A DNA stretch of 64,000 nucleotides from Paraconexibacter algicola (GTDB lineage Bacteria > Actinomycetota > Thermoleophilia > Solirubrobacterales > Solirubrobacteraceae). A program made the translations under genes and the position numbers. The DNA lies in contig NZ_PYYB01000001.1 of NCBI RefSeq assembly GCF_003044185.1, positions 2,066,978 to 2,130,977 of the forward strand, in the 5' to 3' direction. The notes below the pieces were generated by a model. The model ran no database searches, was not told the DNA's origin, and was given only the letters and a program-made list of their open reading frames with translations. Shown here piece by piece: positions 5,072 through 19,302 of this stretch (within the stretch, counting starts at the first letter, position 1; each line of letters begins with the position of its first letter).

Positions 5072-5096
5072 GTTTGCGCGCCACTTTCCGGGTGAC
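5072..5096 (+). promoter_or_regulatory. SigB/SigF-like promoter ahead of the STAS gene
   Basis: GTTT at 5072-5075 is followed by 14 bases and then GGGTGAC at 5090-5096. This matches the general-stress sigma factor pattern of actinobacteria (GTTT, 14-16 bases, GGGTA). Transcription would start about 40 bases before the STAS start codon. The match is by eye only. Confidence 0.4.
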
Positions 5097-5141
5097 GGGC
5101 GAACTTCTCCACGGTTCGCGCGTTGGTGCAGCCGGGACCGG

Positions 5142-15921: not shown

Positions 15922-15963
15922 GGCCGCGAGCCTAACGAGGGTGGGGGGCGCCCGTGTCTGGTC

Positions 15964-15996
15964 GGGTGCGGGCGCGGGTGTGGGTGCGGGTGTGGG
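15964..15996 (+). repeat. Six evenly spaced GGG runs, G-quadruplex candidate
   Basis: GGG occurs at 15964, 15970, 15976, 15982, 15988 and 15994. The period is exactly six, with 3-base loops TGC, CGC, TGT, TGC and TGT. Four runs are enough for a quadruplex and six are present. The tract starts 43 bases upstream of the lipase start codon, on the template strand of that gene, and its right end runs into the left arm of the first stem-loop repeat. Confidence 0.6.
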
Positions 15997-16068
15997 TGGT
16001 CCGCCTCGCTGCGGTGGGCCGCCTCCGGCGGCCCACCGGATGTCGCTCGGCGGACCACCCACACCCGC
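15986..16068 (-). repeat. Stem-loop repeat, copy 1
   Basis: The outer arms 15986-16005 and 16049-16068 are complementary over all 20 bases. Inside, GGTGGGCCGCC (16013-16023) pairs perfectly with GGCGGCCCACC (16027-16037) around a 3-base loop. Read on the minus strand the order is arm, GAGCGACATCC, inner stem, GGA, inner stem, GCAGCGA, arm. The internal loops match copy 2 almost exactly while the stem sequences differ. The gap around it (15922-16443) has no convincing gene. Confidence 0.75.
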
Positions 16069-16232
16069 GCGGACACCCGACCGGTGCGGGCGGCGGCTTG
16101 GGGAGCAGGCGGGGCAGGCGCCTGCTGCTCGTCGGGAGCGTCGTGGGCGGGGCGCCGTGCGGCACGGTCGTCTGGTGCGTGATGCGCAGCTGCCGTCTTG
16201 CGAGCACGCCGATCCCGAGCACGCTGCGGGAT

Positions 16233-16317
16233 GCCTGGGTGGGACGGGATGCCGAGCGGCATCCGGTGCGCCGCCGGAGGCGGCGTGCCGCAGCGAGGCA
16301 TTCCGTGCCACCCAGGC
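16233..16317 (+). repeat. Stem-loop repeat, copy 2, opposite orientation
   Basis: The outer arms 16233-16253 and 16297-16317 pair at 19 of 21 positions, one exception being a G-T wobble. The inner arms GGTGCGCCGCC (16265-16275) and GGCGGCGTGCC (16279-16289) pair if wobbles are allowed. The unpaired parts, GAGCGGCATCC, GGA and GCAGCGA, match copy 1 except for one base, whereas the arms are quite different sequences. It lies inverted relative to copy 1. Confidence 0.75.
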
Positions 16318-16319
16318 CT

Positions 16320-16348
16320 GCCGGAGGCGGCGTGCCGCAGCGAGGCAT
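16320..16348 (+). repeat. Stem-loop repeat, 3'-half copy
   Basis: These 29 bases are identical to 16273-16301 of copy 2, starting in the 5' inner arm at GCC and running through GGA, the 3' inner arm, GCAGCGA and GGCAT. No full 5' half precedes it, so it is a truncated copy, 47 bases from its match. It ends about 95 bases before the ribonucleotide reductase stop codon. Confidence 0.75.

Positions 16349-16443: not shown

Positions 16444-19302
<2,859 letters not shown>

Follow-up and report, generated by a model that had tools for sequence, protein, structure and literature searches.

The 64,000-nucleotide stretch analyzed here (the window) contains two members of a family of long hairpins that has so far been found in one actinobacterial genome only, that of Paraconexibacter algicola. 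The reading that best accommodates its anatomy and distribution, which we hold with somewhat better than even confidence, is that of a REP/BIME-like family, restricted to this species, of discrete palindromic mobile DNA units carrying conserved boxes in an internal loop.

Inspection of the letters had pointed to two full copies and one half copy of a stem-loop repeat, the full copies in opposite orientations, within a gene-free gap. All three lie where that sequence-only reading placed them, with copy A on the minus and copy B on the plus strand (Table 1), and the gap does separate two genes: nrdJ (B12-dependent ribonucleotide reductase, minus strand), which ends at 16444, and a minus-strand gene starting at or below 15922 that has no Pfam match and resembles a secreted hydrolase. 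When inverted with respect to each other, copies A and B are 90% identical across 49 nt. Copy A is the strongest inverted repeat of the window and copy B ranks third. The box strand of copy A, with its fully paired outer arms, has a predicted RNA minimum free energy of -79.6 kcal/mol (z -10.3), and that of copy B, whose 21-base arms contain one G-G and one G-T, reaches -71.3 kcal/mol (z -9.1); none of the shuffled versions of either copy folds equally well. One arm of copy A contains the 12-mer CGGGTGTGGGTG twice in tandem (15975-15998), a doubling that suggests a change by slippage or template switching. The G-rich tract adjoining this copy (15960-15999, GGGTGC GGGCGC GGGTGT GGGTGC GGGTGT GGGTGG), in which the 12-mer repeat lies, is a possible G-quadruplex.

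Table 1. Coordinates of the hairpin units and their parts. Ranges are positions in the window; entries of the form C1:2082964 locate the seven full copies in the genome.
Feature	Position	Strand	Description
Full copy A	15986..16068	-	83 nt, box strand minus; covariance model 95.9 bits, E 1.8e-14
Copy A, 5' outer arm	16049..16068	-	GCGGGTGTGGGTGGTCCGCC; 20/20 paired with 15986-16005
Copy A, 5' box	16038..16048	-	GAGCGACATCC
Copy A, inner hairpin	16013..16037	-	11-bp stem, GGA triloop 16024-16026
Copy A, 3' box	16006..16012	-	GCAGCGA
Copy A, 3' outer arm	15986..16005	-	
Copy A, outward extension of palindrome	15960..16082		15960-15986 pairs with 16056-16082, 27 nt, 89%
Full copy B	16233..16317	+	85 nt; covariance model 93.8 bits, E 4.7e-14
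Copy B, 5' box	16254..16264	+	GAGCGGCATCC
Copy B, inner hairpin	16265..16289	+	GGA triloop 16276-16278, two G-T pairs
Copy B, 3' box	16290..16296	+	GCAGCGA
Half copy	16320..16348	+	29/29 identical to 16273-16301, the right half of copy B from apex to arm
Copy A in genome	C1:2082964		nrdJ-hydrolase gap
Copy B in genome	C1:2083212		nrdJ-hydrolase gap
C6 pair	C6:97364 and C6:97705		downstream of 5S gene, rRNA operon
C2 copy	C2:559779		convergent gap, 30 bp past a gene without Pfam match, before PucR-type regulator
C2 copy	C2:329302		17 bp past guaA
C1 copy	C1:1315988		convergent gap, 13 bp past YkuD gene, before GCS2 gene

The search of the whole genome that had been proposed for these hairpins yielded seven full copies, the two of the window included. 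They were found with a covariance model built from five copies, and a model built from all seven recovered the same set (E from 3e-15 to 2e-8, the maximum being 1.8e-8), the next match having an E-value of 3.3. Each search of this genome scored the best 150 first-look candidates; since covariance-model searches score only the best such candidates of a genome, very diverged copies could be missed. The two observations that were to count against the family, a lack of further copies and arms that no longer pair, were not made: the arms are mostly complementary, although in the two C6 copies only 14 and 17 of 20 positions form Watson-Crick pairs. All seven copies lie outside the genes called by a simple codon-usage script, in both orientations, and most sit just past gene 3' ends.

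This placement raises the possibility of a transcript-end hairpin, that is, a terminator acting in both directions or a protector of mRNA 3' ends, whose core would be an old, lineage-specific terminator loop and whose orientation would be immaterial, as either strand folds very stably. Three loci 13-55 bp from stop codons, two of them in convergent gaps, and the high stability of both strands are in keeping with such a role. The stems, however, are not followed by a T-run, so that the pattern of an intrinsic terminator (a GC-rich hairpin and then a run of T's) is absent at the repeat units. The nrdJ and rRNA loci, by inspection, have a separate GC-rich hairpin with T's nearer the gene, and hence do not need the repeat as a terminator. 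A plain terminator, moreover, would not keep 18 unpaired bases, and hairpins of such length seldom occurred in a sample of about 400 kb from the same genome. We therefore regard a transcript-end origin of the family as unlikely.

Each unit spans 83-97 nt and is built as an outer arm, the box GAGCGRCATCC, an 11-bp stem closed by GGA, the second strand of that stem, the box GCAGCGA and the second outer arm. As the sequence-only reading had it, the three unpaired parts are kept; they are common to all seven copies with few changes, and over the 18 nt of the two boxes any two copies match at 15-18 positions. The outer arms (20-27 bases) are in most between-copy comparisons no more alike than shuffled arms, several of them having a GCGGGTG-like outer end in common, and yet they remain mostly complementary: both sides have changed in 17 of the 20 outer and 6 of the 11 inner pairs. 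Across the seven copies, 90.8% of the cells are paired, versus 66.7% after shuffling and 41-48% in slid controls. A chance origin was rejected, the structure statistics being far above both kinds of control, although seven copies make a small sample.

A fold of this kind could be maintained as RNA, which was one half of the functional proposal made from the letters alone. The box strand would be transcribed, its internal loop (tandem G-A pairs beside an asymmetric 6x2 loop) would bind a protein or small molecule, and the arms would covary through selection on the RNA fold. The covariation statistics agree with this account, as do the two adjacent G-U pairs (G-T in the DNA) in the inner stem of four of the seven copies; in two copies this stem has G-A type mismatches. 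In C2:329302 the first two box positions and their partners change together, from tandem G-A/A-G to G-C/C-G, a joint change in a single copy which suggests that these positions are paired. The box strand is also the more stable one in the RNA fold of six of the seven copies (in the DNA fold, of only four), both strands folding very stably. An RNA of this type would be new: a search of Rfam returned no match at or above a family's gathering score, and the sub-threshold matches, mostly to miRNA hairpins, were set aside as generic long hairpins. A K-turn was dropped because the G-A pairs are not preceded by a 3-nt bulge.

Against a structured RNA stands, first, the orientation of the boxes, which are sense to both flanking genes in one copy, antisense to both in four and in convergent gaps in two; this mixture disfavors a one-strand mRNA element, and the four antisense copies, opposite to both flanking transcription units, weaken that half of the proposal. 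In the window gap, a simple scan detected neither promoter-like nor terminator-like signals. In the outer arms, furthermore, G-U is not in excess of A-C, and the young C6 pair lacks compensatory changes. On balance we find a structured RNA rather doubtful as the reason for the fold.

The pattern of imperfect pairs bears directly on what the covariation means. Selection at the RNA level would favor G-U over A-C, a preference that the decay of a DNA palindrome would not have. The imperfect cells of the outer arms comprise, in what is a small count, four G-T, four A-C and four G-G, and with G-T and A-C equally frequent the arms look more like a product of neutral Watson-Crick decay than like an RNA helix, where G-U would prevail. 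Between the two C6 copies, the youngest pair, five arm positions differ, four of them changed on one side and one on both sides, the latter unpaired in both copies; no compensatory pair-to-pair change occurs among the five. Perfect pairing in arms whose length ranges from 20 to 27 bp requires, in addition, compensated changes in length, which go beyond single point mutations. Template switching during replication is documented to create and mend perfect stems in one event, and covariation of this type with them (PMC8794818). Repair by template switching could, then, produce the arm covariation, and the 12-nt doubling in copy A is a trace of the sort that palindromes may leave behind.

The earlier claim that changing but complementary stems are the mark of selection on a folded molecule is accordingly borne out in part: a dispersed family of stem-loops whose stems covary and whose unpaired boxes are conserved does exist, but covariation of the outer arms does not by itself point to selection, as complementary arms tell that pairing has been maintained and do not identify the force behind it. 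For the boxes matters differ. Under template switching one would expect them to become complementary; since they have not, something probably reads them. If the present reading is right, the family also offers a clean natural case in which strong stem covariation among paralogs may be mutational, arising by template switching at palindromes and not by selection on RNA, which matters for the use of covariation as evidence.

The other half of the proposal, a hairpin recognized by a transposase or recombinase, draws on evidence that the unit spreads as DNA. The C6 pair, two like-oriented copies separated by 341 bp, shows 90% identity in the left arm, 98% in the core and 80% in the right arm, as opposed to 10-40% outside the unit, and is aligned by blastn over 87 bp at 92%. 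Likeness confined to the hairpin unit indicates that a discrete piece of DNA of about 85 bp was copied. The C6 arms are identical at 18 of 20 positions and were thus copied along with the core. This argues against a 43-bp core having moved on its own into the loops of unrelated, pre-existing host hairpins that supplied the arms, an account suggested by arms that are mostly at shuffle level of likeness around a nearly constant core. The common GCGGGTG-like outer end of several arms and the great scarcity of host hairpins with arms of at least 18 bases in the same sample of about 400 kb also speak against it, and we consider such insertion of a core highly improbable.

Transposition by a Y1 enzyme fared less well. 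The comparison with REP-type transposase genes had no object here, as the Y1 transposase domain PF01797 has no match in this genome (assembly 95.6% complete) and was detected in control genomes. The anatomy, together with a unit that is discrete and about 85 bp long, keeps a transposase or recombinase plausible; the missing Y1 transposase and the absence of the element from relatives in the class count against it. No target duplication is visible by inspection of the copy flanks, and the extreme divergence of the arms is odd for a recent spread. For the mobile palindromic units that we favor, the following mechanism may be envisaged. The unit would disperse as a folded single strand, an enzyme or a protein of the host would recognize its asymmetric internal loop, formed by the boxes, and the outer arms would need only to pair; the near-perfect palindromic arms would be kept or restored by selection for folding, by template switching in replication, or by both. 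A unit just past a gene end could then serve, passively and on either strand, as a transcript-end hairpin. Since the reading enzyme would not be a Y1 transposase of the assembled genome, the family may have been orphaned and ceased to move. The more specific version of this scheme, in which a non-Y1 enzyme spreads the hairpin as folded single-stranded DNA, recognizing a code in the internal loop, while template switching rewrites arms that are under no constraint on their sequence, is speculative and in itself improbable.

The restriction of the family to one genome was assessed at several phylogenetic levels. Covariance-model searches did not find the element in 60 relatives (61 genomes searched, best 76 candidates per genome scored) or in 398 other members of the class (399 genomes, best 11 candidates per genome scored). 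At the order level, one match (L192) was judged by eye to lie inside a thymidylate-kinase-like coding frame and another (L193) lacks the boxes. Exact matches to the boxes in 145 members of the taxonomic family revealed no element, those in nine genomes lacking, by inspection, the GGA-capped inner hairpin, and among 84,980 GTDB species 20 matches were obtained, none of which folds as the element; the exact-box pattern fits four of the seven copies of this genome and hence has fair sensitivity. A looser pattern matched the relatives at about the level of a reversed-pattern control. No copy was present in IMG/VR or in the phages searched, and weak matches in Streptomyces plasmids do not form the element. 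Within the genus, the synteny that an empty-site comparison requires is lacking: the surroundings of guaA differ, and the hydrolase and GCS2 genes are only 33-50% identical.

Other palindromic repeats were encountered in these genomes. A second repeat of about 127 bp occurs in this genome at L123:19709-19835 (G000:C2:139709-139835), with ends GGGGTGAACGGACATTTCCAG, and a half-like partial copy of it (L099, about 5078-5140) directly adjoins the hairpin copy C1:1315988. A complete genome sampled from the same genus (G007) contains 17-bp arms GCAGGTCGAGGTCGGCG that flank a loop of 40-43 nt (L141, L154, L157 and L159), palindromes resembling GTGACAGCTCAC (L145, L146 and L158) and the palindromic repeat GCGGCGTGCGGCC (L153, L156 and L158). 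The families of that genome differ from those found here, which suggests a fast turnover of palindromic repeats in the genus.

Several known classes of repeats resemble the family in part. MITEs such as ERIC, YPAL and NEMIS have conserved terminal inverted repeats. The units described here are likewise non-autonomous intergenic palindromes of about 100 bp, but it is their ends that vary, and a target duplication is not visible. The attC sites of integrons, with variable stems and a conserved structure, are recognized as folded single strands. The stems here also vary under a constant structure; the conserved part, however, is an internal loop, and the attC R boxes (GTTRRRY/RYYYAAC) are absent, by inspection, from the ends of the seven aligned units. 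SLS families, stem-loop repeats catalogued in bacterial genomes (PMC2267715), are similar by description in being intergenic within a genome, with a common predicted fold and no assigned function, and differ, again by description, from this small family with its strongly diverged arms.

The closest parallels are with REPs and BIMEs. REPs lie mainly past the 3' ends of open reading frames, in convergent or tandem gaps (PMC3733652), and REP subfamilies with alternative complementary stem residues have been reported. The hairpins are, similarly, species-specific intergenic palindromes past gene 3' ends, in tandem or convergent gaps and in both orientations, and their units do differ by alternative complementary stem residues. 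They also have an unpaired conserved motif, a stem irregularity comparable to the irregular stem bulge that E. coli REPs require for recognition (PMC8266576). The inverted pair of copies A and B, about 250 bp apart and followed by a half-copy fragment, recalls the alternating units of BIMEs; the C6 copies share one orientation, 341 bp apart. REPs are defined as elements of 20-50 nt in high copy number (PMC8266576), in the hundreds, as compared with seven copies of 83-97 nt here; their association with RAYT/TnpA_REP has no counterpart in this genome, in which PF01797 is not found, and no GTAG/CGTC tag is common to the seven aligned copies or their flanks. The REP motif sits at the foot of the hairpin, and the conserved boxes of this family sit inside it. 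Taken together, these comparisons lead us to infer that the family works like a REP, yet we do not file it as one. If this reading is right, a genome in which no REP transposase was detected harbors a REP-like family, one whose conserved code would reside in the internal loop and not at the foot of the hairpin.
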